Source: a virus. From it: DNA of 24,674 nucleotides. Every line of letters begins with the position of its first letter. Position 1 is the first letter of the stretch. A model generated the notes under the pieces. The model was not told where the DNA came from. It saw only the letters and a list, made by a program, of their open reading frames with translations, and did no database searches. The position numbers were made by a program, and so were the translations under genes. Shown here piece by piece: positions 1,258 through 24,374 of the stretch. The DNA lies in the IMG/VR virus record IMGVR_UViG_3300038701_002729, positions 1 to 24,674 of that record; one strand, written 5' to 3'.

Positions 1258-1280
1258 TCACGCCCGATAATGGCGTTTAT
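1258..1280 (+). promoter_or_regulatory. Module-boundary motif, copy 1
   Basis: TCACGCCCGATAA, 6 bases, then TTAT; one mismatch to the 13-base core. It lies 24 bases before the integrase ATG. It has the same genomic orientation as the other eight copies but, unlike them, precedes a rightward gene. Confidence 0.7.
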
Positions 1281-1304
1281 TCAAAATCACAGGAGCAAAA
1301 AACA

Positions 1305-2513
1305 ATGACATTACCAGCACAAATCCAACAACCACAACAAATCACAATCACCACTGGCAACAACTGGAGCGGATGGCAACGCTACTTCAATCCAGAGGAT
1401 GCACTACAATCCCTCATCGACCTCGTGGAAATCAAACCGTCCAGCCGCACCGAACGCCACACCATGAAAGCCTATCTCTCAAGCCTCGCCAGCTATGTCA
1501 CATTTTTGGGTGGGGATGCCATCCATGACGGTGGTGAGGATTACACCTGGGACTTCTCCAACATGCAGATGCCCACACTCGCCAATACCCAACGCTACAT
1601 TGCCCATTGCTCGATGACAGGTTTAGCCGCCAGCACCATTCAACGCTATATGGCATCAGTCCGTCACTTCATCAAAGCCCTAGAGCATCAAATGCCCGTA
1701 CCCCAATCAGGCAATGATTTCATGTTCATCATGCAAGCCCAGCATCAATTCAAGGTTGCCCGTGATGTGAAAAACCCTGCACCCACAGCCACAACCTCAC
1801 GCCCCAAGATGGAAACAACCGGGCATCGCCTCGAACTCGAAGAACTCGACCTGCTCTTTTCTTCATTCCGTCCGGGCTTAAACAATCACGACATCACCAC
1901 CATCATGGGCAAGCGTGACATCGCCCTAATCTACCTCGGCATGATTTCAGGTCTACGCGCCTCAGAACTCGCTCGCCTTACCTTGGCAAATATAACCCAG
2001 CAAGATGATGAGAATTATGCTGTCACCGTGCGTGGCAAACGCAACAAATATGACCCCGTCGGCATCGATGCAGAATCAGTCCAACTGATAGAGAATTACG
2101 TTACCGCATGGAATGACACCCTCGCAGATGACGATCCACGTCGCATCACAGCAGATACACCACTATTCCAAACGATGACCAATCACGGCACAATCCCACC
2201 CCTTAAATCGGCAAAGCCAGAGAAAGAAATCTGCTCACGCACCGTCACCCGCCTTGTCGCTCGCCGTGTCGCTGATGCAATTCCAAAGTATGCAGATAAA
2301 TCATTCTCTGCCCATGATATGCGTCGCACCTGCGCCTACATCATGCGTGACCTTGGGTACGAATGGGATAACATCCGCGATAAACTACGCCACCATTCCA
2401 TCGCCACCACCGAGAAATACGTCGGCAAGAAACTCGACCTATCAAAATCCAACTGGACTAAACGTCGCAAATTCAACATCCCATCCGATCCCAACAACAA
2501 ATTACCCCTGTAG
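1305..2513 (+). CDS. int: Tyrosine-family site-specific integrase/recombinase
   Basis: A 402-aa tyrosine recombinase. The N-terminal half (about residues 30-150) is a SAM-like core-binding domain. The catalytic domain (about 175-380) shows R218 in GLRASEL, K245 in a GKRNK turn, the HxxR box H337-R340 (HDMRR), H363 in LRHHS, and the nucleophile Y372 in ATTEKYVG. This set is complete, so the enzyme is predicted to be active. It would cut and rejoin attP and attB during integration. AGGAG (1291-1295) lies 9 bases before the ATG. The gene is rightward and converges on the leftward late cluster, with a bidirectional terminator between them. The N-terminal 25 residues are Gln/Thr-rich and may be flexible. 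XerC/D-like resolution of dimers is a less likely alternative. Confidence 0.93.
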   Translation: MTLPAQIQQPQQITITTGNNWSGWQRYFNPEDALQSLIDLVEIKPSSRTERHTMKAYLSSLASYVTFLGGDAIHDGGEDYTWDFSNMQMPTLANTQRYIAHCSMTGLAASTIQRYMASVRHFIKALEHQMPVPQSGNDFMFIMQAQHQFKVARDVKNPAPTATTSRPKMETTGHRLELEELDLLFSSFRPGLNNHDITTIMGKRDIALIYLGMISGLRASELARLTLANITQQDDENYAVTVRGKRNKYDPVGIDAESVQLIENYVTAWNDTLADDDPRRITADTPLFQTMTNHGTIPPLKSAKPEKEICSRTVTRLVARRVADAIPKYADKSFSAHDMRRTCAYIMRDLGYEWDNIRDKLRHHSIATTEKYVGKKLDLSKSNWTKRRKFNIPSDPNNKLPL

Positions 2514-2517
2514 AAAA

Positions 2518-2555
2518 ATTCCCTCTCCATTTATGGGGAGGGTTAGGGAGGGGTC
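2518..2555. repeat. 38-bp palindromic repeat, short subtype (copy 1)
   Basis: CCCTCTCC, ATTTAT loop, GGGGAGGG, then TTAGGGAGGGGTC. It begins 5 bases after the integrase stop codon. It is identical over 38 bases to the copies at 11385-11422 and 17003-17040. Confidence 0.9.
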
Positions 2556-2624
2556 TGCGCGTAATACACACACCAGCAAACTATCCTAAATACAGAAGAC
2601 CTTTCACAGTCCATGTGCAGGTAA

Positions 2625-2660
2625 TGAAAAAGCCCCTAACGCGTAGACGGGGCTTTTTCA
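2625..2660. terminator. Bidirectional intrinsic terminator between int and the late cluster
   Basis: TGAAAAAGCCCC (2625-2636) and GGGGCTTTTTCA (2649-2660) form a perfect 12-bp stem with a 12-base loop. The A/T ends give a T-run on either strand. It separates the rightward integrase from the leftward late cluster ending at 2712. Confidence 0.9.
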
Positions 2661-2676
2661 TTTGCGATACCAGTAA

Positions 2677-2703
2677 TGTAGGGACGCTATCCATAGCGTC
2701 CGC
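2677..2703. repeat. 27-bp palindromic repeat, copy 1 (CC centre)
   Basis: Arms GGACGCTAT (2682-2690) and ATAGCGTCC (2693-2701) flank a CC centre. Outer bases TGTAG and CGC are shared with the second copy at 3491-3517. It lies 9 bases after the stop of the 40-aa membrane peptide. Confidence 0.9.
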
Positions 2704-2711
2704 CTATAACC

Positions 2712-3418: not shown

Positions 3419-3490
3419 CCTCACAACCCTCTCGTATTTGCCTTTATCCCAATATAACCCAAATAAAGCAATCACAAGAGTTGAGGATGT

Positions 3491-3517
3491 TGTAGGGACG
3501 CTATGGATAGCGTCCGC
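3491..3517. repeat. 27-bp palindromic repeat, copy 2 (GG centre)
   Basis: Same arms and outer flanks as 2677-2703, but the two central bases are GG instead of CC. It lies upstream of the membrane-protein gene at 3418 and directly before motif copy 2. Confidence 0.9.
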
Positions 3518-3526
3518 AGGGGTCAC

Positions 3527-3549
3527 TCACGCCCAATAAAGGTATTTCT
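3527..3549 (+). promoter_or_regulatory. Module-boundary motif, copy 2
   Basis: Perfect TCACGCCCAATAA core, 6 bases, then TTCT. The TTCT end overlaps the stop codon (TAG, 3550-3548) of the lipoprotein gene. Confidence 0.8.
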
Positions 3550-5203
3550 ACGCCGCCCAATCATAATCCCCACAAATCGGACGCATATCCTCACCAGCAG
3601 ACCACCGCTCAAGCAAAACGTGCATCTCATATAAGAACGGATTCTGCACCCCACTCACATCAAAGCTGATCCACAGCTCATTAGTCGACCATGTGAACAA
3701 ATTTACACCCACATAATTCTCTGGCACGATGTAATCCCACCACATCATCTGACAAACTGCCGCCTCAGCATCTGACCACTGCGGAAAGTAAGCACTCCAC
3801 AAATTATCATAGCTGGGGATGCCTCGCATATCACGGAAATACTTATCAACCCCGTACTGCTCGCGCCACATCTGCACAGGCTCAATGCCACCCGGTACAT
3901 TAATATCACTTAGGTTATCCCATAAGCCCTCAGTATTGATAATCTGTATCTGAGAACTATCCAAACCAATGCACTCAGCACGCAATAAAAGCCATGTCGT
4001 CCGCAGGATATGCCAGTAAGTCGGGAGTAACCCACCACAATCTACACTCTGGGCAACCAATGGACGAATCACCTGAGAACTCTCATAAGCACCAAACGGC
4101 GAGCGCACAGGGTCAAACGCACTCTGAGCAGAGAAGGGCAGATATTCTATCGGCAAATTTGTCACCCAATTGTCTGGGTGCATCGATGCAGGTGAGACCA
4201 ACTGCTCACGCGAATAAACCCCCACGCCAAAGGGAAGAATACCCGTCGTATACTCATGCGCCCCAATAATATGATTACCGCGGATAACCGCCCGTAACCA
4301 ATCATCAAACAACCCCTGATTCACAGCCCAATCAGGTAAGGTCCCAACTGCGAAATTACCCACAGCCAGACGAATACCCTCATTTCGTGCCGCTTCCATC
4401 AACGCAATCTCAGAAGCAATAAAAGCCCCTACATCATAGAGGCTCGGTTCATTGGATAAGTAACGGATGACTTCATAGCAACCCTCACCCCTCCAGCGGA
4501 AAATCCACTCAGCAGGGTTCGGACGCAAAGCCCACTCCTCACCTTCAAACCGTGAGTAATCCCGATGGATGATAACCGTATTCGGCAATCGCTCAACAGC
4601 TTCACACGCCCTGAAGATATTGTCCATTATCAGAAGCGTCGTTGGTTGCAATCGCTCCAAATGCGCCCACAAATAATCCCAATCAGGCACAGCCACACCA
4701 TTCACATTGTAGCTAATCCGCATCCCAGCAGATTGTGAAACAGGCACAGCCTCGATGCCACCATTGATGAATTCAACCCAATCGCCAAAGAAGACCCAAC
4801 CCTCAGCCACCTGCAACCAACCATCACGCTGAGACAACACCTCAAACGTACTGCCAGCAGATGCCACACGGACAACCCCACCATTCGGAGCAGACCGCAC
4901 ATTCACGTTAGAATTAACCCGAACCTCATTCAAAAACTCACGTGTAGGACTAGGCTCAAAAGTCGGCGCAATCGTCGGCGAAGGCGTAGCAGTCGGAATA
5001 TTTGTTGGAATAATCGTCGGCGTAATTGTCGGACTAGGCGTAACCGTCACTGTAGGAGTAACGCTGGGCGTGTCAGTCACATCAGGCGCAGACCACTCAA
5101 TACCATCCGCAAGGATGATAAAATACAGCCTATCCGCAGAAAATGAACATGCTGTCAGCACCAACGCCAACAGCACAATGAAAAATCTAGTGAGGAGCTT
5201 CAC
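3548..5203 (-). CDS. Lipoprotein with SH3b domain and glycosidase-like TIM-barrel domain
   Basis: A 551-aa exported protein. Residues 1-18 are a lipoprotein signal with lipobox LTAC (C19). Residues about 43-88 are a Thr/Pro/Ile/Val linker of TPT-type repeats. Residues about 93-145 are a bacterial SH3 domain (VNVRSAPNGG, GWLQVAEGWVFF), usual in cell-wall binding. Residues about 158-545 look like a glycoside-hydrolase TIM barrel, with E317 in GAHEY and E425 in INTEG as candidate acid/base and nucleophile. The start is GTG with AAGGGAA about 6 bases upstream; the gene overlaps its predecessor by 17 bases. Position among membrane proteins near the lysis end suggests a wall-degrading enzyme. A lipid-anchored endolysin would be unusual, so a surface glycosidase made during lysogeny is an alternative. 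The catalytic residues are inferred by eye only. Confidence 0.7.
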   Translation of the reverse strand: MKLLTRFFIVLLALVLTACSFSADRLYFIILADGIEWSAPDVTDTPSVTPTVTVTPSPTITPTIIPTNIPTATPSPTIAPTFEPSPTREFLNEVRVNSNVNVRSAPNGGVVRVASAGSTFEVLSQRDGWLQVAEGWVFFGDWVEFINGGIEAVPVSQSAGMRISYNVNGVAVPDWDYLWAHLERLQPTTLLIMDNIFRACEAVERLPNTVIIHRDYSRFEGEEWALRPNPAEWIFRWRGEGCYEVIRYLSNEPSLYDVGAFIASEIALMEAARNEGIRLAVGNFAVGTLPDWAVNQGLFDDWLRAVIRGNHIIGAHEYTTGILPFGVGVYSREQLVSPASMHPDNWVTNLPIEYLPFSAQSAFDPVRSPFGAYESSQVIRPLVAQSVDCGGLLPTYWHILRTTWLLLRAECIGLDSSQIQIINTEGLWDNLSDINVPGGIEPVQMWREQYGVDKYFRDMRGIPSYDNLWSAYFPQWSDAEAAVCQMMWWDYIVPENYVGVNLFTWSTNELWISFDVSGVQNPFLYEMHVLLERWSAGEDMRPICGDYDWAA

Positions 5204-6000: not shown

Positions 6001-6614
6001 TACATACTCTCTGGAACGCTAATACCGTGTTCAACTAACAAATCTTTCAAGCGTTTATTCTGCTTCTGAGCAAGCGTCAACGTATCACGCCACGCCTCAG
6101 CCTCACTAACAGTCTTGAGCAACTTCGCATGCGTCTCAGACCCAATAAACGCCGCATAACTCGCCACCATGGCAGAAGCCGCAAAGCCCAGCAGATAAGT
6201 CACGCCCAGCGCACCGCGTATATCAATCACACCGCTCACAGTCCCAGAGCCAACCATCATCGCATAATAAACAGCGCCTAAACTACCAAGCGTCAGCATG
6301 AAAATATTGTCTTTTTCGAGGAGCATCGCATAAGCAATCATCCCGAAAGCAATCCAATACTGCATCGTGTCACTCTGAGTGATAATGTCCATCCCACTCG
6401 GAATATCACTACTCGTAATCAGCACCAGATTAATTGCACCAACAGCACCATACATATACCGCATCAAGCGATACGGTCCGATGCCACCAATCAGCATCCA
6501 AAACAGAGTCATCACTCGCTCAAAACCTAAGCGAATCTTCCGCATAATCTCCGTATTCCAGACCAATCCCCAACCTAAGCGAATAGCCTCAATATGTTCT
6601 TTAACAGGTCTCAT
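6000..6614 (-). CDS. Polytopic membrane protein, candidate holin
   Basis: A 204-aa protein with about four membrane helices: roughly residues 52-68, 85-99, 104-123 and 135-157; residues 33-46 are also hydrophobic. A basic amphipathic N-terminus and a helical, charged C-terminal tail (about 160-200, AEAWRDTLTLAQKQNKRL) flank them. Position between tail genes and the other envelope proteins suggests a holin or other lysis protein, although holins are usually shorter. The Shine-Dalgarno sequence is weak (GAGAG just before the ATG). A hairpin terminator candidate and motif copy 3 lie upstream, so this gene begins a new unit. Confidence 0.65.
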   Translation of the reverse strand: MRPVKEHIEAIRLGWGLVWNTEIMRKIRLGFERVMTLFWMLIGGIGPYRLMRYMYGAVGAINLVLITSSDIPSGMDIITQSDTMQYWIAFGMIAYAMLLEKDNIFMLTLGSLGAVYYAMMVGSGTVSGVIDIRGALGVTYLLGFAASAMVASYAAFIGSETHAKLLKTVSEAEAWRDTLTLAQKQNKRLKDLLVEHGISVPESM

Positions 6615-6648
6615 CTCTCAACCGAACCCATTCCATGCCAATATAAAA

Positions 6649-6672
6649 TGAGCCTACCATTCGGTAAGCTCA
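6649..6672 (-). terminator. Putative leftward terminator before the lysis block
   Basis: TGAGCCTACC (6649-6658) and GGTAAGCTCA (6663-6672) pair with one internal mismatch around a 4-base loop. On the minus strand TTTTATATT follows. It lies between the 151-aa gene (stop at 6716) and the polytopic membrane gene (start at 6614), which would separate tail and lysis transcripts. Confidence 0.45.
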
Positions 6673-6693
6673 CCAACGCACATCACAGGGGGG

Positions 6694-6716
6694 TCACGCC
6701 CAATAAAACCCCTTCT
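6694..6716 (+). promoter_or_regulatory. Module-boundary motif, copy 3
   Basis: Perfect TCACGCCCAATAA core, 6 bases, then TTCT. The last base is also the last base of the stop codon (TAA, 6718-6716) of the 151-aa gene. Confidence 0.8.
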
Positions 6717-7171
6717 TAGTCACCACTCATGAACTTATTCAGCACCAAAAACGAGGTAACCAAGAAGAAAGCATCTCGCTGAGACGCAGTCGCACCTGTC
6801 GCTAGTGTGACCAGTCTGCTGTATGCTCCCGCCTTATCCGATGTCAACAACTCAGTTTCCATTGCCAGCGTCACATCTGCCAAGGTCGCTAATTGCCCTC
6901 GCGCCGCTTGCACCCCAGCCCGTACCACCTCACGATATAAGTCACGGAACTGCTTCTCGAAATACGCATCCCACACCCTATCTGCCAATGGCTCAGACTC
7001 AATCCACAATTGCACAAAATGTTCTTCCACATAGGTCGCTACATCAACCGCAATCGGTACATCTTCACGGCGTATCTGACGATGATCCCCGGCATCATCC
7101 TCAAGATAAACCTGCACCGTCTTAGTTTTCATACTATTCGGTGCATCCAATACCACCACAAATTCAGCCAT
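6716..7171 (-). CDS. Hypothetical protein, 151 aa, end of tail block
   Basis: A soluble, mostly helical acidic protein beginning MAEFVVVLDAPNSMKTKTVQ. The first 25 residues look like paired beta strands, the rest like helices (YVEEHFVQLWIES, FRDLYREVVRAGVQAARGQL). It starts one base inside the stop of the upstream gene (TGATG) and ends against motif copy 3, making it the last gene of the tail transcript. I do not recognise the family. Its place just after the tail fibre and a secreted protein would suit a fibre chaperone or minor tail component, but this is inference. Confidence 0.6.
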   Translation of the reverse strand: MAEFVVVLDAPNSMKTKTVQVYLEDDAGDHRQIRREDVPIAVDVATYVEEHFVQLWIESEPLADRVWDAYFEKQFRDLYREVVRAGVQAARGQLATLADVTLAMETELLTSDKAGAYSRLVTLATGATASQRDAFFLVTSFLVLNKFMSGD

Positions 7172-7536
7172 CAGTTGTCAATCCTCTCTGGAGCAACAGA
7201 GACATAATCGCCAGCAACATTGTAATTCTCAAGCAAATAGTAATACCGATTCTCATCTCGATGCCACGCATACCCGGCAACACGCCCCACGCGGATACTA
7301 TTGCCAGCACCAACATAGCGCACCACCGCATTGATATTGATGAACCCCTCCATATCCCACCAAACAGGATTAAGGCAGTTCGGACCATTCAAATCTTCCA
7401 ATGGCGCATACATAGCACACAATTCACCCAGATTGGACGGCGCAGGCACAGTCGGCAAGGGTCTTATTTGCGCTAACCCCACCCCCGTGACAATCAACAT
7501 CAGTACATAGATAAGTGCAAAGCGTAACAATTTCAT
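7171..7536 (-). CDS. Secreted small protein, unknown
   Basis: A 121-aa protein with a signal peptide (MKLLRFALIYVLMLIVTGVGLAQ) and no lipobox cysteine. The mature part is beta-rich with two cysteines (LGELCAMYAPLEDLNGPNC) and aromatic strands (NRYYYLLENYNVAGDYV). I use the ATG at 7536, which overlaps the fibre gene's TGA (TGATG) and has GGAG upstream; a TTG three bases earlier is less likely. An exported protein between fibre and lysis genes could modify the host surface or aid release. The family is not recognised. Confidence 0.65.
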   Translation of the reverse strand: MKLLRFALIYVLMLIVTGVGLAQIRPLPTVPAPSNLGELCAMYAPLEDLNGPNCLNPVWWDMEGFININAVVRYVGAGNSIRVGRVAGYAWHRDENRYYYLLENYNVAGDYVSVAPERIDN

Positions 7537-9446
7537 CAAGGTATCTCCACAACAACTGTCAGGTCACTAAATCCAGCATCGCGTAAACATTTGAAAGTAG
7601 TCTGCGTCGATAAATTCGCTCCACTACCATCACCGTAGCGATTCACAACATCAGCATAAGTCGAACTCCACCAATCAACGCCCACCTTGCTCGGGTGTGT
7701 CACACCAGCTTCATTCACGCTAAACACAGCATCTTTACTCTCAGCATTCCATGATGAAGATTGCTCATAGAACATGGCACCGCCAGAATACGAAGGGCTA
7801 CTACCATCCGCTCCCCACGCAATGTAATTATTTATTTCTGATGACCGAGACGTACTCAGAACAATTGCATAAGTACCTGCACTCAAAGTAAATTCAGAAT
7901 TAAACGTGACAAGTTGTTCAGCATAGCTCGTCCCCAAGGTACTCTCTAAGAAGGCTGCTGTTGCATCTACATCAGCCAACGTACCCGTAGGTTCACCTGC
8001 TGACGTAGTTTCAATCCGTACAGTCACAGTCCCTGTCGGACTGCCCACTTTCTTAAGCCATAACCCAACCGATGCAATATCAGTCTCGCTCGCCAGTGTG
8101 AAAGTCTGCGACAATTTTTCTTTATTACCATTGGTTTCTTCATAGGAACGCCCAGCACCGCCGTTATACAACCAAGTCTTTTCATCGGATGTAAACAGGT
8201 CTTTTGCTAAAAACGGAGAATCCATCTGACCATCAAAATAGTTAGACGCTGAAAAACGCCCTAATGCAAACGTAGCAGTCCCAACTTTTATACCAGTTGA
8301 ATGTGCCTCGCTATCCACACCACCATTATTGACTTGAATATTAATCGTATCATTGGCTTCATCATGCCAAGCCATAATAAAATACCAGGTACCAGTCGAA
8401 GGTGACCCCAACGTATCGGCATTAACAAGTGTCGTACCAGAACCGTCATTCACAATGAACTGGAATCTATCTGAGGATGTGTTGTAATACAAAATGTACT
8501 CAGTATCGCCATCCCATTTCCCCATAATGCCCATACTGGCAGGCTTGCTATCTAATTTCACCCAACAACCAAGGGTTAAATCAATATCACCTGCATCCAG
8601 CGTACTATTATCAGCCACACTCAGGTATTCACTATTGGCTCGCGTAAAATCAGCCGCATTACCCTTCTTACCAGTAGCAGATACAACCGTATTGTTGTCC
8701 GTCAGGTTATTAGATCCATGAGCATCAGCCCGCGTCCCAGATGCTTCATCTAAATCCCACCAACTAGTGAATTTATCTCTCACTGACAAAGCAACTTGTA
8801 ACTCTACATCGCTATCCTGGTTACTACTTGAATACCCTTCAGCCTCAGCTCCTGCTTCACTCTCAGTCACATAAGCCCATACATTCCGCAGATACCCGTT
8901 CGTATCCGCATGATGCTGAATGGATAAAGTGTCATCATCAGAAAACGCATTTCGCTTCTGATATTGAATTTTATTCGGCGCGACAATCACCGTATCCGTA
9001 GCAATCGCTAGCCCCATCGGTGCAATCATCACTTGGCTACCAGCCAATGAGGGGTTAGGGCGTGACTGCGTAATGGTTCCAGCAGTCGTCCCAACATAGA
9101 CAACCTGCAACGCCGTCAATCCAGTGAAGCCGTCCATCTCCCCACCAATAACTAGCGTTGCCGTATTTCCAGTTGTAGTCGTCCCATCAACGAAGCCTCG
9201 TATTGTCCCAGCTTTAGGACCCGCCGCATCAGCATCCATCTGGTAAATCTTGCCATCACTCAAATCCAGATACGCAGGCGCACGATCACCCAAGCCTTCG
9301 CCAGCCTCAGCATCAAACGTCCGCTGACCACCTCCCGCCGCGACCAGCGCCAAGAAATAATCTTCGATACTTTGAAAGCGTGTATTAAAACTTGATAAAG
9401 TGAGCGGTAGGTCTGCCCCGCTCATAGGCGTATAACTTACAGGCAT
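7536..9446 (-). CDS. Tail fibre / receptor-binding protein with LamG lectin domain
   Basis: A 636-aa protein. Residues about 55-160 form a small beta domain of the phage fibre/decoration type (DLSDGKIYQMDAD, LQVVYVGTTAGT). Residues about 225-432 are a concanavalin A/LamG-like jelly roll (WWDLDEASG, YLSVADNSTLDAGDIDLTLG, GTWYFIMAWHDEANDTIN, YFDGQMD). Residues about 450-570 resemble a choice-of-anchor beta sandwich (FTLASETDIASVGLWLKK, LSAGTYAIVLSTS). The C-terminus is a short extra domain. LamG folds bind glycans, so host-surface recognition is likely. Its stop overlaps the next start; its ATG directly follows the tail hub stop. The order Dit, hub, fibre is standard for siphoviruses. Confidence 0.85.
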   Translation of the reverse strand: MPVSYTPMSGADLPLTLSSFNTRFQSIEDYFLALVAAGGGQRTFDAEAGEGLGDRAPAYLDLSDGKIYQMDADAAGPKAGTIRGFVDGTTTTGNTATLVIGGEMDGFTGLTALQVVYVGTTAGTITQSRPNPSLAGSQVMIAPMGLAIATDTVIVAPNKIQYQKRNAFSDDDTLSIQHHADTNGYLRNVWAYVTESEAGAEAEGYSSSNQDSDVELQVALSVRDKFTSWWDLDEASGTRADAHGSNNLTDNNTVVSATGKKGNAADFTRANSEYLSVADNSTLDAGDIDLTLGCWVKLDSKPASMGIMGKWDGDTEYILYYNTSSDRFQFIVNDGSGTTLVNADTLGSPSTGTWYFIMAWHDEANDTINIQVNNGGVDSEAHSTGIKVGTATFALGRFSASNYFDGQMDSPFLAKDLFTSDEKTWLYNGGAGRSYEETNGNKEKLSQTFTLASETDIASVGLWLKKVGSPTGTVTVRIETTSAGEPTGTLADVDATAAFLESTLGTSYAEQLVTFNSEFTLSAGTYAIVLSTSRSSEINNYIAWGADGSSPSYSGGAMFYEQSSSWNAESKDAVFSVNEAGVTHPSKVGVDWWSSTYADVVNRYGDGSGANLSTQTTFKCLRDAGFSDLTVVVEIP

Positions 9447-11315: not shown

Positions 11316-11384
11316 AACTCAAAACCTTGTCGATTAATTGCTGTAAAAAATTGGCCAGAAAAACAGCTCAACACTTCCCCAATA

Positions 11385-11422
11385 ATTCCCTCTCCATTTA
11401 TGGGGAGGGTTAGGGAGGGGTC
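11385..11422. repeat. 38-bp palindromic repeat, short subtype (copy 2)
   Basis: Identical over 38 bases to 2518-2555 and 17003-17040. Its last bases overlap the stop codon of the Dit gene (TGA, 11423-11421). CCCAATAA at about 11378-11385, directly before it, matches only 8 bases of the module motif. Confidence 0.9.
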
Positions 11423-14146: not shown

Positions 14147-14168
14147 GCCAATTCATCGCGCCCGAAGG

Positions 14169-14191
14169 TCACGCCTAATAACATCCCTTAT
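14169..14191 (+). promoter_or_regulatory. Module-boundary motif, copy 4
   Basis: TCACGCCTAATAA (one mismatch), 6 bases, then TTAT. It lies 23 bases upstream of the tape-measure ATG, between that gene and a terminator candidate. Confidence 0.7.
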
Positions 14192-14233
14192 CAGTCATAA
14201 GCTACCGCTCTCCAGCCCAAGCAACGCACACGC

Positions 14234-14264
14234 AAAAGCCCCACACCATCAGATGCAGGGCTAA
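14234..14264 (-). terminator. Putative leftward terminator after gpGT
   Basis: On the minus strand AGCCC (14262-14258) pairs with GGGCT (14241-14237), with a possible inner CAT/ATG pairing, and is followed by a TTTT run. It lies about 40 bases after the gpGT stop. The stem is short, so termination may be partial. Confidence 0.4.
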
Positions 14265-14300
14265 GAGGATTTATTCGAGGGTATCTATCGAGGTATGGCA

Positions 14301-14917: not shown

Positions 14918-14968
14918 CAACTATCCTTTCGTATTGAATCAACAAATCAAATTAGCTCATCATGAAAG

Positions 14969-15002
14969 TCCCTCTCCATTTATGGGGAGGGATCTAGGGG
15001 TC
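14969..15002. repeat. Palindromic repeat, variant short subtype
   Basis: CCCTCTCC, ATTTAT, GGGGAGGG as in the 38-bp copies, but the tail reads ATCTAGGGGTC and is shorter. Its last base is also the last base of the major tail protein stop codon (TAG, 15004-15002). Confidence 0.85.
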
Positions 15003-15457
15003 TATGACCAGGTATCTCCATCATATAAATTGCTACGTGGCGTACCACTGCTAATGACCGTCATCTCGATGGTCACTAAGGGTTTATCCACAGCAACTTC
15101 AGGACCCTTAATCTGAGTGATGAGGAAATCTTGGTCATGTTTCAATTTGCCCGAAACATCACCTTCAGGTCCCCACACAATCGGGACAACATTGCCTTGT
15201 TGTGAAATATCGGCAATCGCCGCAATATCCGTATTGATACGGTCAGTGTCATAAATAATCATGATTGTGCCGTTGATGACTTGCAGTTTACCTGCGTGGT
15301 CTTCCCACTCAGTCCCTGCACCACCGGTCACATTCTCATCACCTGTCGATTTCGACATACTAAAGCTCTTGAAAACTTTCTCAGTCGCATCATCAGGGTC
15401 AGCCACAACACGCGAATTAATGCTTAAATAAGCATTATTACTATTAAAAGCAGGCAT
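15002..15457 (-). CDS. Major tail (tube) protein
   Basis: A 151-aa beta-rich protein: MPAFNSNNAYLSINSRVVAD, then KVFKSFSMSKSTGDENVTGG, GKLQVINGTIMIIYD, and ending VTIEMTVISSGTPRSNLYDG. This length and character fit the siphovirus tail tube subunit that polymerises around the tape measure. It sits between the tail terminator and the chaperone genes, the standard order. GAGG lies 7 bases before the ATG. Assignment is by order and general fold character rather than a distinct motif. Confidence 0.8.
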   Translation of the reverse strand: MPAFNSNNAYLSINSRVVADPDDATEKVFKSFSMSKSTGDENVTGGAGTEWEDHAGKLQVINGTIMIIYDTDRINTDIAAIADISQQGNVVPIVWGPEGDVSGKLKHDQDFLITQIKGPEVAVDKPLVTIEMTVISSGTPRSNLYDGDTWS

Positions 15458-16336: not shown

Positions 16337-16718
16337 TTTTCTCTCGCAATCGCTTAATAATCACCTGCACATATGCAGAGTCCGTCATATCATCCATCAC
16401 ATCGACGACCTCATAACGGCGACCATCTGCCATCTCAACCCGATACTCGCCCGCGACAGTCGTCCCGACGGGTAAAATCAACCGATGCTTATCCACCAAA
16501 GTCTCACGCCCACCAGTCAAAGCATTGCTACCATTCATCTGCTGACCAGCACGAATCACACGACAAGAAACACCAGAAGCAGTCACAACCCAATCATTCA
16601 AAGGTTCATTATGTGTACCCTTCGCGTCGCCCTGCTTCAGCAAGGTACAACTATCCGTAAGATAGCGATTCACCATCGCCTGCACCCGTTTAATCGTCCG
16701 CGCTCGTATACCTGTCAT
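16329..16718 (-). CDS. Head closure / head-tail adaptor protein
   Basis: A 129-aa small beta-barrel type protein: RTIKRVQAMVNRYLTDSCTL, NDWVVTASGVSCRVIRAG, DKHRLILPVGTTVAGEYRVE, YEVVDVMDDMTDSAYVQVII. It matches the pattern of phage head-closure (Ad2-like) proteins that seal the portal channel. I use the ATG at 16718; a TTG at 16724 has a closer AAGGG site and would add two residues. The ATG itself lies inside motif copy 5. Position between connector and gp10-like genes is as expected. Confidence 0.78.
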   Translation of the reverse strand: MTGIRARTIKRVQAMVNRYLTDSCTLLKQGDAKGTHNEPLNDWVVTASGVSCRVIRAGQQMNGSNALTGGRETLVDKHRLILPVGTTVAGEYRVEMADGRRYEVVDVMDDMTDSAYVQVIIKRLREKNG

Positions 16719-16737
16719 GCTCAATAATGTCCCTTCT
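16715..16737 (+). promoter_or_regulatory. Module-boundary motif, copy 5 (diverged)
   Basis: TCATGCTCAATAA (two mismatches), 6 bases, then TTCT. It overlaps the start codon of the head-closure gene: the two changes include the base that makes GTG into ATG on the minus strand. Confidence 0.6.
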
Positions 16738-16743
16738 CAGATG

Positions 16744-16974
16744 TCACTCAGCAGGAGTGAAATCGACGTAGTATTCTTTTCCAACTTCAAATTGCTTGAG
16801 TGCTTCTGGATTTATAGTGGACAAATCTATCTGCCCTGCGGGGGTATAGCGGAAGAACTTTCCATTTTCACTATTGGGATCTTCATCATAAACAGGTTGA
16901 AGAATGACACGTCCAACATCTACATCACTCATAGCTTCTTCAATTGATATAACTTCAAATTTTGCCCGTACCAT
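16744..16974 (-). CDS. Hypothetical small connector-region protein, 76 aa
   Basis: A 76-aa acidic protein: MVRAKFEVISIEEAMSDVDV then strands and KFFRYTPAGQIDLSTI, ending KEYYVDFTPAE. GAGGA lies about 9 bases before the ATG. It looks like a small beta protein; similar short proteins are found among head-tail genes of phages, but I cannot name a function. It is separated from the upstream connector gene by a 38-bp palindromic repeat and from the downstream gene by motif copy 5. Confidence 0.65.
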   Translation of the reverse strand: MVRAKFEVISIEEAMSDVDVGRVILQPVYDEDPNSENGKFFRYTPAGQIDLSTINPEALKQFEVGKEYYVDFTPAE

Positions 16975-17002
16975 TCGAGTGTCCTCACTAAACTATGTTT
17001 AA

Positions 17003-17040
17003 ATTCCCTCTCCATTTATGGGGAGGGTTAGGGAGGGGTC
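17003..17040. repeat. 38-bp palindromic repeat, short subtype (copy 3)
   Basis: Identical over 38 bases to 2518-2555 and 11385-11422. Its final TC is part of the stop codon (TGA, 17041-17039) of the connector gene. Confidence 0.9.
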
Positions 17041-17497
17041 AGTCCCACCCTACAATGTCATCATCTCGATGCTCACGCTCACGCCGTTGATAATCCGTAG
17101 TCCGCTTATCAGCATAATCAGGCGTATACGTCGTCTGACCATCCACAGGACCTTGCAAGCTATCTTTGCGATACGGGTCAACCTGCGTCGTACTCAAGCT
17201 AAAGCCCAGACCAAACGCCTTTTTCTTCTCAGCCAGCAAAGACTTCCAAGCATCAGCTGACCGTCGCCAACTAATCGTCAGCCAATCCGCAGTCATATCA
17301 GGCTCTTGTGCCAACCGCGCAATCGTACCGTTAATCAGATTGATGACAGCCTTATTGACACTCCCACCTTCCAATGCCAGTACCATCTGAATCTCTTCAT
17401 CACTGAACATGGCATAATCTTCTTCAGTATCCGCAATGTGATACCGAACAACAAGCAAGTCACTGGGTGTCGTACTTGGCTCATACGTGAAAGTCAT
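17039..17497 (-). CDS. Head-tail connector protein
   Basis: A 152-aa mostly helical protein: LLVVRYHIADTEEDYAMFSD, EEIQMVLALEGGSVNKAVIN, ARLAQEPDMTADWLTISWRR, SADAWKSLLAEKKKAFGLGF. The leading 'DTD...FSDEEI' style segment and helix bundle are typical of phage head-tail connectors of the gp6 type, which bind below the portal. The C-terminal 45 residues are charged and probably disordered. The start overlaps the previous stop (TAATG). Confidence 0.75.
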   Translation of the reverse strand: MTFTYEPSTTPSDLLVVRYHIADTEEDYAMFSDEEIQMVLALEGGSVNKAVINLINGTIARLAQEPDMTADWLTISWRRSADAWKSLLAEKKKAFGLGFSLSTTQVDPYRKDSLQGPVDGQTTYTPDYADKRTTDYQRREREHRDDDIVGWD

Positions 17498-17874
17498 TAT
17501 CGACCTACTCGGTATAACACTTCCGCCCGAACAGTACCCTCATCATTCCCGTCTGCCACAGCCAAATTCAACTTGCCATGCACAGGGAACGGCTCATAGG
17601 CTTCATTCGTACCGTCGAATGTCACCCCTGCGCCAAGGTTATCCTGCACCGCCACACGTGGATAAAACCAGCCATTTGAATTAGCATTACCCACAGTCAA
17701 AATCGTCTGCTCAGGGCTAACCATTTTCAGCGTCACATCCGCAGTCGAAGGTTGCCCCGTATAAGCCAGATGCACAGCCAATATCTCACCCTGTATCTGA
17801 GGACTATCCGTATTCCCGACAGCACTGCCATCACTACCAGCACTCGTCACATCAATCGTCACTCGCTGAATCAC
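17497..17874 (-). CDS. Beta-rich head-associated protein, unknown
   Basis: A 125-aa beta-rich protein: QRVTIDVTSAGSDGSAVGNT, EILAVHLAYTGQPSTADVTL, GKLNLAVADGNDEGTVRAEV. GTG start at 17874 with GAGAGG upstream. Proteins of this size and pattern occur next to capsid genes in many siphoviruses and may decorate the head, but I cannot assign a named family. It lies between the Ig-like protein and the connector, 12 bases after motif copy 6. Confidence 0.65.
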   Translation of the reverse strand: MIQRVTIDVTSAGSDGSAVGNTDSPQIQGEILAVHLAYTGQPSTADVTLKMVSPEQTILTVGNANSNGWFYPRVAVQDNLGAGVTFDGTNEAYEPFPVHGKLNLAVADGNDEGTVRAEVLYRVGR

Positions 17875-17886
17875 ATCTCACCTCTC

Positions 17887-17909
17887 TTACGCCCAATAAG
17901 ACGTATTAT
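17887..17909 (+). promoter_or_regulatory. Module-boundary motif, copy 6
   Basis: TTACGCCCAATAA (one mismatch), 6 bases, then TTAT, between the stop of the Ig-like gene (17911) and the GTG start at 17874. ATAA GACGTA TTAT is itself nearly palindromic. Confidence 0.7.
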
Positions 17910-17910
17910 C

Positions 17911-18318
17911 TTATGCGGCAAATGTCAGTGCAGACGATACAATCACACGACCAGTCGGCAAACGCAGGACCAGATAAAACGTATCCGAACCCGATTCTTC
18001 AACAGTGATGACAATCGCACCCGTCGCATCCGAAGTCAAAAAGCCTGATTTACCAGCAACAACCTGATTATCACCACCAGTAGTCGCCGCAATCCCGCCA
18101 TCAGGAGCAGTCGCCGCCACACCATCGCCACCGCTATCATCAGATAGCCAGAAATCAACCGATGCAACATTCTCCAGCGCACGTGCGCCTTGAGCATCCG
18201 CATACAGCTGAATAGTTACAGTCACCACATCACCATCTTCCGCACTCGGGCTAACCGTTGCAAAAGCAGGAATTTGATACCCATCAATCGCTAGACCATT
18301 TGCAAAATTTGTTGCCAT
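17911..18318 (-). CDS. Ig-like capsid-region protein
   Basis: A 135-aa protein with an Ig-like beta pattern: DGDVVTVTIQLYADAQGARA, VASVDFWLSDDSGGDGVAAT, and an end GSDTFYLVLRLPTGRVIVSS. This pattern is common for proteins encoded just after the major capsid gene and suggests a decoration role. A hairpin terminator candidate separates it from the capsid gene. GAGGT precedes the ATG. Confidence 0.7.
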   Translation of the reverse strand: MATNFANGLAIDGYQIPAFATVSPSAEDGDVVTVTIQLYADAQGARALENVASVDFWLSDDSGGDGVAATAPDGGIAATTGGDNQVVAGKSGFLTSDATGAIVITVEESGSDTFYLVLRLPTGRVIVSSALTFAA

Positions 18319-20453: not shown

Positions 20454-20488
20454 CACGCTATCTCCTGTGGCATCACGCCACCAAATGT

Positions 20489-20635
20489 CTACGCTGGCAA
20501 AGCATCACACCTCGCCAGTTGCTTTCCTCTCGTCTCACCTTGGCAATGAGCGTCCCCATCCTCCAACACAAAAATCGAGGTCAGCCTACTAATCTCACCC
20601 TCATCATGAAATATCTCACGCCCAATAACGCGCAT
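20489..20635 (-). CDS. Possible 48-aa ORF starting inside motif copy 7
   Basis: An open frame from ATG (20635) to TAG (20489) reading MRVIGREIFHDEGEISRLTS onward and containing two cysteines (AHCQGETRGKQLARCD). There is no Shine-Dalgarno site, and the first seven codons are the motif itself. It fills an otherwise empty 222-base gap between scaffold and the inserted rightward gene. It could be a degraded small gene or chance. Confidence 0.25.
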   Translation of the reverse strand: MRVIGREIFHDEGEISRLTSIFVLEDGDAHCQGETRGKQLARCDALPA

Positions 20636-20638
20636 TAT
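20616..20638 (+). promoter_or_regulatory. Module-boundary motif, copy 7
   Basis: Perfect TCACGCCCAATAA core, 6 bases, then TTAT. It ends 12 bases before the TATAAT of the rightward inserted gene, so it covers the -35 region of that promoter. Confidence 0.8.
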
Positions 20639-20649
20639 CAGATTTCACA

Positions 20650-20655
20650 TATAAT
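20650..20655 (+). promoter_or_regulatory. Promoter -10 box of the inserted rightward gene
   Basis: A perfect TATAAT followed 11 bases later by AAGGAGAT and the ATG at 20679. No -35 consensus is seen at the right distance; the module motif lies there instead, suggesting control by a DNA-binding protein. Confidence 0.65.
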
Positions 20656-20678
20656 GTATTTAAGCTAAGGAGATAAAA

Positions 20679-21179
20679 ATGAATAGTGATTTCGATGCCC
20701 AAGAAATATGGAAACTGACGAAAGAAATTTTAGAACAGTGGGGTGCGATTGAAGTTTGGAACCCTGTTACGGTTGCCAAAGTATACGATGACAAGTACAT
20801 ATATATTGTATCCATATTGCGTCAAGACGGCACAAAATTATTTCATAGTGATATTCGTATTTATATCAAAATGCCAGATAAGAAATTACAAAAGTATCTT
20901 GAAGGGGGAGAAAATCCTACAGAATTACAACGATTCGGATTGCCAACTAAATCTGCGAAGAGTACGCTAATTAAAAAACACACTTTTGTTTATCAGTCTC
21001 TGATAAGTGAAGACGGAATTTGTGACAATTTTTATTTTCGTGCAGGGCAATGGACTTGGTATATTCAAAGACTATCTGATTTTTCAAAGAAACTTCAGCA
21101 AGCAATTCACATTCTTGAATCAGAAGAGGTAGATGATAGAAATTTTTTTGAAGTTGATTGGTCAACTAACCTAATGTAA
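20679..21179 (+). CDS. Inserted rightward gene (moron-like), unknown function
   Basis: A 166-aa soluble protein (MNSDFDAQEIWKLTKEILEQ, VAKVYDDKYIYIVSILRQDG, NFYFRAGQWTWYIQRLSDFS) with alternating strands and helices and many aromatic residues. I do not recognise the family. It is encoded opposite to all surrounding head genes, has its own TATAAT box and a strong AAGGAGAT site, and is clearly richer in A/T and G over C than its neighbours. Its stop lies 4 bases from the convergent stop of the minor head gene. These are the marks of a moron: a recently acquired gene expressed independently, often in the lysogen. A role in superinfection exclusion or defence is possible but not shown. Confidence 0.75.
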   Translation: MNSDFDAQEIWKLTKEILEQWGAIEVWNPVTVAKVYDDKYIYIVSILRQDGTKLFHSDIRIYIKMPDKKLQKYLEGGENPTELQRFGLPTKSAKSTLIKKHTFVYQSLISEDGICDNFYFRAGQWTWYIQRLSDFSKKLQQAIHILESEEVDDRNFFEVDWSTNLM

Positions 21180-21183
21180 GTTC

Positions 21184-22275
21184 CTACCGACGACGATAAT
21201 ACTGACTAGCACCTGCACCTAACACATTTCGCAGACTACCCTCGCGGATCATCGCGCCAAACGTCTCGTCCTCATAGTCCTGCCGAAAATCACGGAGCTG
21301 TACCGCACCCTCTTGGTATGCCTCCCACTTCGCAGGACTTCGCAAAAAACTCGCCTGCTGTTGTTGCCGCTCACGGGGTAAACTCGCAAACCATTGTTCG
21401 CCTGTCACCATGTTCAGCTCACGCCCCACAACCTGAATCACACTCGTACCCCGTCCTTGGTGATGGTCATTCACCCGTGGAATTGGCTCGCCAGCATTCG
21501 CCTCACTATCCCACATCACATCCCCATGCAAACTAACACATGAGAGGCACGTCCGCGCATCGAGCGTCTCCACACGGATAACCCGTCGCGCAATCGCCAT
21601 ATTCGCATTCTGATGAACAGCCGTCCCGTCACGGTATGAAGTCAATTGCAACGTCCGCATCAAATTATTCGCCTGATACAATGGCAAAGTCTCACTCGAA
21701 TCACGCAACACACGCGCAGTCCGTAACGGCGACCACCCTTGAGCAATACCCCCGACAGCCTGCTCACCTATTTGTCGTGGGATGAGACCAGCAAATTCTC
21801 GCTCCAACATCTCACTCCAGCTATTACTCTGGATGTAATTCACAGCCTCAGCCACTGCTTCTGGGTCAGGCGTATTCCACTGCACCCCAACCGCTCGCAA
21901 CTGCGTATCCGTGAAACCAGGTAACGCCAATTGCCTCTGCACCGTACCCGCCGCATCCGAGCCACTCGCCTGCAAGCCCTCCCCTGCACCATCCAGTAAC
22001 ACAGCATTACCTCGCATCACCGTATCAAGGTCAGATAAAAAAGCCCGTAGCACGGGGTCATCCGCTTGGAACTGTTCCCCAGCCTCTTCTAATTCAGCCG
22101 CACGTCGCTCGACCTCTCGCAATCGGGTCTGGAGCAAACTCCCGTCGCGTGTCAGCGTCGATGTAATCCCACGCAAAACAGGAACAGCCTGCTGGTCATA
22201 CCCTCTATCCAGCAAGCCAGTCACCAAATCATTCACGGTCCCTCGACGCGGGTCAGTCTGTCTCGGTGCCGTCAT
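21184..22275 (-). CDS. Minor head morphogenesis protein (Mu gpF / SPP1 gp7-like)
   Basis: A 363-aa protein. The N-terminal half is helical (LREVERRAAELEEAGEQFQA). The Mu gpF-type domain spans about residues 160-285: PLRTARVLRDSSETLPLYQA, RRVIRVETLDARTCLSCVSL with C243/C246, DVMWDSEANAGEPIPRVNDH with H271/H272. Most relatives have a second Cys near 'CRC'; here the segment reads HHQGRGTSVIQ, so the zinc-like cluster may differ. These proteins associate with the portal and act in head assembly. It overlaps the upstream 68-aa gene by 23 bases. Confidence 0.88.
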   Translation of the reverse strand: MTAPRQTDPRRGTVNDLVTGLLDRGYDQQAVPVLRGITSTLTRDGSLLQTRLREVERRAAELEEAGEQFQADDPVLRAFLSDLDTVMRGNAVLLDGAGEGLQASGSDAAGTVQRQLALPGFTDTQLRAVGVQWNTPDPEAVAEAVNYIQSNSWSEMLEREFAGLIPRQIGEQAVGGIAQGWSPLRTARVLRDSSETLPLYQANNLMRTLQLTSYRDGTAVHQNANMAIARRVIRVETLDARTCLSCVSLHGDVMWDSEANAGEPIPRVNDHHQGRGTSVIQVVGRELNMVTGEQWFASLPRERQQQQASFLRSPAKWEAYQEGAVQLRDFRQDYEDETFGAMIREGSLRNVLGAGASQYYRRR

Positions 22276-22459
22276 CTGTCACATCTTCTTCTGGGGATGC
22301 CTCGTCAGTCGCATCAACCTTAATCTTCACAGTGATACTCTTAGCAGTCTCACTCACGCCCACACTCACATTTATCCCATGCGAGACCGATAACTCATTC
22401 TCAATTGCCTGTGCCGCACGTCGCACACGCTTCTTAACCTGCTCAACCACATTCATCAT
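22253..22459 (-). CDS. Small hypothetical protein, 68 aa
   Basis: A 68-aa protein: MMNVVEQVKKRVRRAAQAIE, then two beta strands (NVSVGVSETAKSITVKIKVD) and a very acidic tail (EASPEEDVTDDGTETD). TAGGAG lies just before the two consecutive ATGs. Its 3' end overlaps the minor head gene by 23 bases in another frame. The basic helix and acidic tail are notable, but I cannot assign a function. Confidence 0.6.
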   Translation of the reverse strand: MMNVVEQVKKRVRRAAQAIENELSVSHGINVSVGVSETAKSITVKIKVDATDEASPEEDVTDDGTETD

Positions 22460-22490
22460 TTGCTCCTAATATAATTCTTGGGGATTCTAT

Positions 22491-22534
22491 GTTCCCCCTC
22501 GCCATGAGGGAGAGGGGGCTAGGGGGTGAGGGTC
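22491..22534. repeat. G/C-rich palindromic repeat, long subtype (copy 2)
   Basis: CCCCCTCGCC, short loop, GGGAGAGGGGG, then CTAGGGGGTGAGGG. It ends two bases before the stop codon (TAA, 22538-22536) of the fibre-like gene. Same layout as 1197-1240 with several differences. Confidence 0.8.
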
Positions 22535-22535
22535 T

Positions 22536-22985
22536 TTAAGCCAGCGCCGCAGGACTTTTCTTAATATCCAGCGTCACCTGAGACGTACCACTGCCCCAGA
22601 ACAAAAACACAGGCGTATCACCAGACGACAAATCATCGTAAGGCATGATGTCACCTGCCGCCCCACCAGTCGTCCCATCAGATGACCCCAAACAATAAGG
22701 AACACCCGCAGTCGTTGTTGCGCCGATGTCAATCGTTGCCCCATTCGGGAATAACTGACCATTCGTCCCGTCAGCACCATCCGTCCCAGCGATGCCCGCC
22801 ACGTCAGCTGCTTCACTGTCAGACGAAATCGCCGCGTTGTCACAATCCGCGAGCTTATGCTCATTATCTGCACTGTCCTTATAGACGACCTTGCCTCGTG
22901 CAATCGTCGCACCATAATTCACGTTACGGGGTCGAACCCCACTAATCCATTTCACACTTGCCGCAGTAATTGATAATGCCGCCAT
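22536..22985 (-). CDS. Head fibre / decoration-type beta protein
   Basis: A 149-aa protein: MAALSITAASVKWISGVRPR, GATIARGKVVYKDSADNEHK, ATIDIGATTTAGVPYCLGSS, ending FLFWGSGTSQVTLDIKKSPA. The series 'GATI..G.VVY.D...KL' then 'VGT.Y.LS' is that of small phage fibre or decoration proteins often found near portal genes. The tail fibre at 7536-9446 has a similar beta unit near residues 55-160. I use the ATG at 22985, with GAGGTG upstream, over a GTG at 22997. Confidence 0.72.
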   Translation of the reverse strand: MAALSITAASVKWISGVRPRNVNYGATIARGKVVYKDSADNEHKLADCDNAAISSDSEAADVAGIAGTDGADGTNGQLFPNGATIDIGATTTAGVPYCLGSSDGTTGGAAGDIMPYDDLSSGDTPVFLFWGSGTSQVTLDIKKSPAALA

Positions 22986-23058
22986 AATGCACCTCACATC
23001 TATAGCCTGTAGTTTTCGATGCTTCGAGCATAGCTCTCCACATTATCAACATCGCACA

Positions 23059-23081
23059 TCACGCCCAATAAGGACAATTCT
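23059..23081 (+). promoter_or_regulatory. Module-boundary motif, copy 8
   Basis: Perfect TCACGCCCAATAA core, 6 bases, then TTCT, whose last base is part of the stop codon (TGA, 23083-23081) of the 106-aa gene. With copy 9 it exactly brackets the exonuclease cassette. Confidence 0.8.
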
Positions 23082-23401
23082 CAACTGTCAAATATTTTAT
23101 TGGCGAGTCTTCGCATCACTTTCCGCTGTTTCTGATATTCTGGTTTATCGGGGTTCCAGTTATCACCGAGGTATTCTTTAGGAGGAACTGCCATTACACG
23201 TTTTGTTCGATTGAAACTTTCTTCCGCAATGCGCTTCAACCCAAAAGGTTCATCAGGTGACTTTTGATAAACCTTAAGCATGTCCTGAAAATTAAATGAT
23301 TGGATATGGCTAAGTGCTAAAACGGCAAAACGTAATTCGTCATACTCAGGGCGTTCGCCGTCTTTACAAGACTCAATAATTTCGCTAAGAGTTTTAGACA
23401 T
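23081..23401 (-). CDS. Hypothetical protein, 106 aa, exonuclease partner
   Basis: A 106-aa helical protein: MSKTLSEIIESCKDGERPEY, DELRFAVLALSHIQSFNFQD, KRIAEESFNRTKRVMAVPPK, and a basic end KQRKVMRRLANKIFDS. I use the ATG at 23401 (GGAG 8 bases upstream); an overlapping TTG at 23422 would add seven residues. It lies just after the exonuclease gene, separated by 17 bases, and both are enclosed by motif copies 8 and 9. The 'helical protein beside a nuclease' pattern recalls regulators or structural partners, but the function is unknown. It is less C-rich on the plus strand than its neighbours. Confidence 0.65.
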   Translation of the reverse strand: MSKTLSEIIESCKDGERPEYDELRFAVLALSHIQSFNFQDMLKVYQKSPDEPFGLKRIAEESFNRTKRVMAVPPKEYLGDNWNPDKPEYQKQRKVMRRLANKIFDS

Positions 23402-23418
23402 CTCGGTGTCTCCATTTA

Positions 23419-24333
23419 TCAAGGTATTTCTACAGACTGATTCGCTTTAGACATTTTCTTAATTAGATCTAAAGTTGCGACGCAATCACCTAATGCGCCA
23501 TGTGTCCCATTCAGAGGTTGCCACTTATAAGAACCCCAATAACTCGACCATTCACCATAATATTGAGCATAAAACTTCATGGCACAATCGTAACCAAATT
23601 TGATAGGTTCTAAGTCGTGACGGTCACAATCGGCTTCTAACCTTGCTCTATCAAAATCAGCGTTATAAATGACAACTATCTTTTGCTCAATCGCTTGCTT
23701 AATATCCTCATAGACTTCTGCAAATGTAGGACAATCGGCTAAATATTCTAATGAAATACCGTGTACCATTTCCGCTTCGGGATTTATCCCGCCTAATGGC
23801 TTAATCCGTTGGTCAAGGATTGTATTATCCTGCATATCAATGACGGCAATTTCAATAATCTCACCATGCAAATCAGTGGTTTCCGTGTCGAGAATAACTA
23901 CATCCTCAAGTTCCACGATATGTTTAGCCCACTGGATAGCACGGTACTTATCCTCACAAAAGCCACAGACGAAATGATCATAATCATTATCTATCCATTC
24001 CTTGCGTGTAACCAGCCAAGCATCACCATAGCGGTTCGTAACAAGCCCATTGCAGTCTGAGCAACGCTTTTCTAGCTTTTCAGCCATATAACGGGCTTTC
24101 TCTAAGGCTTTAAGCTGTGCTTCTGTAGGTTTTCTTTTTGGTTTAGCTTCACTCATAGCATAAAGGTCATAGTATCCGACATGCTTACCGCGATGGTTAT
24201 AACGCTTCTTTTGTGCAACAGGTTTCTGCTCTTTGGTCAATTTCAAACCAAAGTCACGAGACAAAGTCGTCTTAGTAGCTATACCATCGGGAATATCTTC
24301 CCATTTTGTATATACTGGAATTTGTTCAGACAT
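23419..24333 (-). CDS. DEDDh 3'-5' exonuclease with N-terminal zinc module
   Basis: A 304-aa protein (ATG at 24333; GAGGGG 8 bases upstream; a GTG at 24339 is the alternative). Residues about 91-126 form a CxxC...CxxC zinc knuckle (C91/C94 and C123/C126, with CSDCNG and CGFCED). Residues about 146-295 are a DnaQ-like exonuclease: Exo I with D149 and E151 (ILDTETTD), Exo II with D228 (YNADFDRARL), Exo III with H278 and D283 (GTHGALGDCVATLD). All five catalytic residues are present, so it should degrade DNA or RNA from 3' ends with two metal ions. It sits between portal and fibre genes, far from any visible replication genes, which is odd for such an enzyme. Confidence 0.9.
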   Translation of the reverse strand: MSEQIPVYTKWEDIPDGIATKTTLSRDFGLKLTKEQKPVAQKKRYNHRGKHVGYYDLYAMSEAKPKRKPTEAQLKALEKARYMAEKLEKRCSDCNGLVTNRYGDAWLVTRKEWIDNDYDHFVCGFCEDKYRAIQWAKHIVELEDVVILDTETTDLHGEIIEIAVIDMQDNTILDQRIKPLGGINPEAEMVHGISLEYLADCPTFAEVYEDIKQAIEQKIVVIYNADFDRARLEADCDRHDLEPIKFGYDCAMKFYAQYYGEWSSYWGSYKWQPLNGTHGALGDCVATLDLIKKMSKANQSVEIP

Positions 24334-24351
24334 AGACACTACCCCTCACAC

Positions 24352-24374
24352 TCACGCCCAATAAGCCAACTTCT
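24352..24374 (+). promoter_or_regulatory. Module-boundary motif, copy 9
   Basis: Perfect TCACGCCCAATAA core, 6 bases, then TTCT. Its end overlaps the portal stop codon (TAG, 24375-24373), and its other end is 19 bases before the exonuclease ATG. Confidence 0.8.

Follow-up and report, generated by a model that had tools for sequence, protein, structure and literature searches.

A 24,674-bp stretch of viral DNA (IMG/VR record IMGVR_UViG_3300038701_002729, positions 1 to 24,674; hereafter the window, meaning the whole of it) carries nine copies of a short split element at the borders of its gene blocks. From the sequence comparisons below, we tentatively read these copies as dif-like sites, that is, tyrosine-recombinase sites that may end exchangeable gene units. 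We favour this reading over a regulator-binding site, with a confidence that falls just short of even. The copies start at 1258, 3527, 6694, 14169, 16715, 17887, 20616, 23059 and 24352, exactly where the initial annotation of this DNA had placed them. They follow the pattern TCACGCCCRATAA-N6-TTMT, six of the nine without mismatch, two with one mismatch and one with two; the five perfect cores first counted are correct when position 9 is restricted strictly to A. With as many as three mismatches allowed, the window holds 11 matches, against 0.24 expected from shuffled sequence, and the two surplus ones (8961 on the minus strand and 11123 on the plus strand) are both intragenic. The plus strand carries all nine copies, which aligns them with the leftward late genes, along which the element reads W-K-A-A-N6-TTATTGGGCGTGA. 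All nine are recovered only with a gap of six, the other strand has none, and the 6-bp centres all differ among the copies of this one genome, confirming the single orientation and the constant gap of varying content reported at first.

Profiles built from the nine window sites and 28 others place the element within a longer, imperfect inverted repeat of ~32 bp around AKAA-N6-TTMT, with preferred bases T(-9), A(-7), C(-3), G(-1), AKAA, N6, TTMT, C/G(15), G(17), T(21) and A(23). Conservation is poor in the outer part of the left arm, most of all in the window copies. The bipartite core described in the initial annotation therefore stands, while the weaker inverted arm across the gap had been missed. 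A dif site consists of two 11-bp arms with palindromic, conserved inner parts around a variable 6-bp centre, one arm being better conserved than the other (PMC2731167, PMC6449649). The element has the same inverted arms of ~11 bp, variable 6-bp centre and conserved inner arms. The sites and the integrase gene beside the first of them are as follows:

Site 1, 1258..1289, minus strand: ATAA-ACGCCA-TTATCGGGCGTGA read leftward; 25 bp upstream of the integrase start; candidate attP core.
Site 2, 3527..3558, minus strand: AGAA-ATACCT-TTATTGGGCGTGA; overlaps the TAG of a 551-aa gene.
Site 3, 6694..6725, minus strand: AGAA-GGGGTT-TTATTGGGCGTGA; overlaps the TAA of a 151-aa gene.
Site 4, 14169..14200, minus strand: ATAA-GGGATG-TTATTAGGCGTGA; 22 bp ahead of the tape-measure start.
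Site 5, 16715..16746, minus strand: AGAA-GGGACA-TTATTGAGCATGA; follows an extra 231-bp open reading frame (ORF) and overlaps the start of the head-completion gene.
Site 6, 17887..17918, minus strand: ATAA-TACGTC-TTATTGGGCGTAA; 1 bp past the TAA of a 135-aa gene.
Site 7, 20616..20647, minus strand: ATAA-TGCGCG-TTATTGGGCGTGA; separates a rightward ORF (20679-21179) from the scaffold-capsid genes.
Site 8, 23059..23090, minus strand: AGAA-TTGTCC-TTATTGGGCGTGA; overlaps the TGA of a 113-aa gene.
Site 9, 24352..24383, minus strand: AGAA-GTTGGC-TTATTGGGCGTGA; overlaps the TAG of the portal gene.
Integrase, 1305..2513, plus strand: XerC-like tyrosine recombinase with conserved R, K, HxxR, H and Y; homologues of 48-50% identity in three clade phages.

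The copies lie mainly at the ends of genes. For six of the nine, an ORF of 60 or more codons has its stop no more than 8 bp from where the copy starts, compared with 3% of random positions. As first described, the copies at 3527, 6694, 23059 and 24352 overlap a leftward stop codon and the one at 16715 overlaps a start codon; the copy at 16715 also starts 6 bp past a stop codon, and the copy at 17887 starts 1 bp past one. A terminator-like hairpin stands 20 bp beyond site 3, at 6674-6647. An TGTAGGGACGCTATNNATAGCGTCCGC hairpin repeat occurs twice, at 2677-2703 and 3491-3517, the second a few bp after a site. The arm TTATTGGGCGTAA of site 6 (window 17887-17909) resembles a conserved part of the 16S rRNA around position 560, a likeness that we judge to be coincidence.

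The window represents part of a temperate siphophage genome. Its left end holds the integrase and XRE protein genes, and its leftward genes encode portal, exonuclease, MuF-like, scaffold, capsid, connector, tape-measure, Dit, fibre-like and SH3-domain proteins. Twelve exact motif matches were found in IMG/VR, mostly single and intragenic, with several copies in contig L010 only. Taking L010 for an unrelated phage was wrong: it is the terminase-portal part of the same clade, and through its terminase 12 more contigs were found, a collection later widened to 80 loci. The portal, MuF, scaffold, capsid and connector genes are common to the window and its closer relatives, in which the element has lineage-specific arms, for example AGAA-N6-TTATCGGAAGTGA in L056, L057 and L098, and ATAA-N6-TTCTGAGGGGTGA in L059. 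A scan of 0.94 Mb returned 21 forward matches and one reverse, all in the closest clade; five control patterns returned 0-2. Relatives further off that have this terminase family were without the element. Within 247 kb of non-redundant clade sequence, gap 6 gave 29 forward and 0 reverse matches, and other gaps 0-3; no centre was repeated within any one genome. The initial annotation had held that it would be refuted by relatives that lack the motif while keeping the gene order; the outcome is mixed, since the distant relatives lack the element, whereas the closer clade keeps it at comparable junctions. A single intergenic match in the 100-kb contig L016 (8592-8614, ATAAGGGGTTTTATTGGGCGTGA) is identical to the window copy at 6694 in 22 of 23 bp, centre included, and may be due to chance.

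Genes were clustered across the clade, and core-gene junctions with a gap of at least 150 bp were classed as interrupted; the genes were called with a simple script, the records are fragments, and the site-score threshold was set by eye. A site is present at 25 of 44 interrupted junctions compared with 4 of 61 direct ones (Fisher p=1.5e-8, descriptive like the other p-values, since several patterns were refined after data inspection). The marking of module boundaries noticed in the window thus holds there and extends to relatives. The terminase and portal genes are adjacent, with no site, in nine compared relatives, while L010 has an extra 693-bp gene with a site at its stop codon. The c7-c16 junction has a site in the window only, after the extra 231-bp ORF, and the c4-c7 junction is free of sites in G531 but has one in G526, after an extra gene. 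An extra ORF ending in a site thus stands, in L010, the window and G526, where relatives keep the core genes adjacent and site-free, and the common unit is an ORF with a site at its 3' end.

After a ClpP-like gene, a stretch of 30 bp that spans the arms and the centre CAAGGC is identical between L058 and L059, and the content downstream differs. We softened a description of this case as unrelated genes at a shared site, because the ClpP-like gene precedes the site in both, although the flanks do not align. The ClpP-like protease gene, which lies between the gene in the small-terminase position and the large terminase gene (L010 7911-8837, L058 1768-2442, G527 17387-18241, L068 76-987), is variably present among relatives and is always followed by a site. 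Sites also often flank the MuF-like module. The MuF-like gene and its neighbour have the same direction as the portal gene in the window (21184-22997), G528 and G529, and are inverted in G526 (13074-14622), G527 (23131-24228), G530 (6411-8638), G531, G532 and L062.

XerC is the best NCBIfam model match of the window protein, below the curated cut-off, and the IntI match is weak; the R, K, HxxR, H and Y residues were assigned by the pattern of the family. Four phages have their integrase region in the compared sequence, and each of them carries a core, with one mismatch or none, no more than 60 bp ahead of the integrase start codon; AGAA-N6-TTACC[AC]G[AT]A is common to three of these four sites. 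The product of the chance frequencies for the integrase-upstream sites is ~2e-6, with the G527 start set at an inner ATG after inspection. When IMG/VR was scanned with an integrase alignment, close homologues were found only in three site-carrying clade phages besides the window. The association between integrase and site is real but inseparable from common descent.

We favour dif-like recombination sites because of the inverted arms with a free 6-bp centre, the centres that do not repeat, the position at stop codons, the link to extra genes and the XerC-like neighbour. The two inverted arms, ~11-13 bp each around the freely varying centre at the 3' ends of gene units, would most likely be bound by the phage's XerC-like integrase or by host XerC/XerD. 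With differing centres, copies within one genome would not normally recombine together, while an incoming unit with a matching centre could lead to insertion, replacement or inversion of a block, leaving units of an ORF plus a site in the late region. Among the mechanisms first put forward (a stoperator, an operator for a phage regulator or a recombination linker), a recombination site is the best fit to the anatomy, with its inverted arms, variable centre and XerC-like neighbour, and a stoperator-like regulator is possible. A wider proposal is that the XerC-like integrase of this lineage serves as a cassette machine on the phage's own late region, with virion and accessory genes arranged as units of an ORF and a dif-like site with private 6-bp centres. 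We regard this wider proposal as doubtful.

Several observations weigh against recombination sites. Canonical dif outer arms (such as TTATGTTAAAT) were not found in the element, whose arms are TTATTGGGCGTGA in the window or TTATCGGAAGTGA in relatives, and for this reason it is named dif-like and not dif. Genomes of the host order seldom have the canonical arm either (2 of 101), and a canonical dif search identified no host dif. Inserted genes have a site mostly at their 3' border and rarely at the other, and no identical gene unit was observed at two places in the clade comparison. Some junctions keep their site and even the same centre, as G531 and G526 do ahead of the scaffold gene, which is how a regulatory element would behave. 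No recombination event was caught: the sole close pair, L260 and G530 (88% identity), loses alignment inside a gene and not at a site, and an apparent breakpoint at a site in this pair was rejected as an artefact of the offset in an ungapped comparison. All window copies share one orientation, whereas the sites of pdif modules alternate. Finally, an interrupted junction may also be the edge of an operon, a pattern expected under a regulator model too.

The host is probably a member of the Chloroflexota. When the genomes of 84,980 prokaryote species were compared, a 33-bp palindromic repeat of the window was present in a single one, a metagenome-assembled genome of the Chloroflexota (PMV_1.47, where the exact 33-mer is on 13 contigs), and genomes of the same order hold prophage-like terminase relatives; both point to a host in this phylum. 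Near-identical palindromic repeats of this CCCTCTCCATTTATGGGGAGGGTTAGGGAGGGG type lie between phage genes at 2514-2555, 11381-11422, 14963-15004 and 16999-17040 of the window and at 5350-5389 of L010. They are a host-type repeat within phages, resembling repetitive extragenic palindromic (REP) elements.

Exact window arms were found in none of 396 genomes of the host class, and a shorter arm gave two single matches; the element with exact window arms was therefore rejected as a host-chromosome feature, and the refuting case named in the initial annotation, an equal density in host chromosomes, did not arise. In 101 genomes of the order, ACTTCCNAKAA-N6-TTMT gave 14 matches, all of them ACTTCCGATAA-N6-TTAT, the complement of the L057-type arm. 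The pattern GATAA-N6-TTATCGGAAST, at up to one mismatch, gave 58 matches in 9 genomes versus 1 for the reversed pattern, and across 655 kb of G271 five GATAA/TTATC pairs have gap 6, compared with 0-1 for any other gap. The host-type arm sequence is TTATCGGAACT. These host-order sites are intragenic as often as intergenic, run in both directions and lie near housekeeping genes. Scattered GATAA-N6-TTATCGGAA[CG]T sites were observed inside and between such genes in chromosomes G271, G507, G509 and G513-G516 (L168-L240), and the chromosomal sites of G001 read GATTCGTGATAA-N6-TTATCAGGATTC. Some host matches are probably coding coincidences, and those inside murA and a gene that we presume to be proC from its N-terminal motif may be among them. 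An SOS/LexA reading of the host sites was dropped, as the neighbours examined are not SOS genes, and GC skew was uninformative on their replication polarity.

Among known systems, the dif sites and pdif modules of Acinetobacter plasmids and chromosomes (PMC6449649, PMC12907356) share with the element the inverted arms, variable 6-bp centre, conserved inner arms and one better-conserved arm, as well as many copies per replicon that bound gene units. Acinetobacter chromosomes carry extra dif-like sites (PMC12907356), to which the scattered host-order sites with nearly the same arms are comparable. Unlike those sites, the phage element has non-canonical outer arms, lies at virion-gene borders and keeps a single orientation, and module movement is here a proposal only. 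Integron cassettes, including attC clusters in phages (PMC9892861), likewise combine an ORF, a site at its stop codon, one direction and a tyrosine recombinase. The phage element differs in being a short site with a 6-bp centre and no room for attC boxes, with no apparent R''-L''/L'-R' structure of the attC type and no GTTRRRY box (no attC model was run), and the phage integrase is XerC-like and only weakly IntI-like.

The strongest competitor, which we rate as plausible though clearly below an even chance, is the target of a regulator: at every late block the inverted repeat would be occupied by a dimeric protein, of the phage or of the host, that governs transcription or expression there, and the integrase copy would be its operator. 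Stoperators, 13-bp asymmetric sites at which a bound monomeric repressor stops elongation, number more than 20 across a genome, lie in short intergenic spaces and have an orientation tied to transcription (PMC9283540). The element shares this orientation, and its overlap with stop and start codons is described for stoperators as well as for the start-associated sequences (SAS) and extended SAS (ESAS) of mycobacteriophages. Sites are also kept at comparable junctions across the clade, and three of the four integrase copies point towards the integrase gene. The structure of the element is different, however, with inverted arms around a free 6-bp centre in place of an asymmetric 13-bp site. No copy adjoins the repressor-like XRE gene of the window, the 248-468 region beside it being free of copies, and the suggestion that the XRE protein binds the element gained no positive support. 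Each of the two arms has a defined sequence of ~11-13 bp, strongly asymmetric, which is beyond the usual operator half-site; no gene on its own strand lies in the direction in which the copy at 1258 points; and the placement of the host-order sites, within genes and in both directions, does not suit a regulator.

The ESAS of cluster K mycobacteriophages have 17-bp arms and a 4-13 bp spacer, lie in the non-structural half and are tied to start codons (PMC3203893). Like the element, SAS/ESAS form an imperfect inverted repeat with a variable spacer by a box resembling a ribosome-binding site, have one orientation, include the upstream stop and vary in half-site bases by lineage; unlike them, the element has a gap fixed at 6, lies among structural genes and is mainly tied to stop codons. 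Many relatives' sites are a few bp upstream of a start codon, but the window copies at 1258, 3527, 6694 and 23059 are not.

Late promoters, with a phage-modified RNA polymerase or an activator starting each late block at the element and a copy after an inserted gene restoring downstream core expression, would account for the one orientation and for copies ahead of the terminase, scaffold, tape-measure and fibre blocks. We consider them improbable. Where a start codon falls in the arm or immediately behind it, transcription would have little space in which to begin; terminator-like hairpins directly follow copies at window 6694, L057 11437 and L066 10788, and a sigma-70 promoter was rejected as the leftward sites have no matching hexamers. 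Both a sigma-70 promoter and a ribosome-binding site fit poorly because of the hairpin-followed copies, the copy at 1258 with no same-strand gene after it, and the stop-overlapping copies with distant starts. An SAS-like translation element, in which the arm is the ribosome-binding site of the next gene, is the least probable of all: the arms of L057, L058, L059 and L065 are Shine-Dalgarno-like (GGAAGTGA, GGAGGTGA, GGGGTGA) with GTG or ATG inside or directly after, but the window arm GGGCGTGA is a poor Shine-Dalgarno sequence, several window starts are 80-105 bp off while the stop codon overlaps the site, and AKAA-N6-TTMT would have no role.

The joints of phage mosaics are usually attributed to illegitimate or homologous recombination. 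Recombinase-type sites at gene-block borders, beside a matching recombinase, would make site-specific module exchange testable in the laboratory, and the cassette machine, if real, would let viruses of the Chloroflexota evolve in modules by a site-specific mechanism. If the element is a regulator site instead, it would represent a new genome-wide system of late-gene control in a phylum with little known phage regulation.

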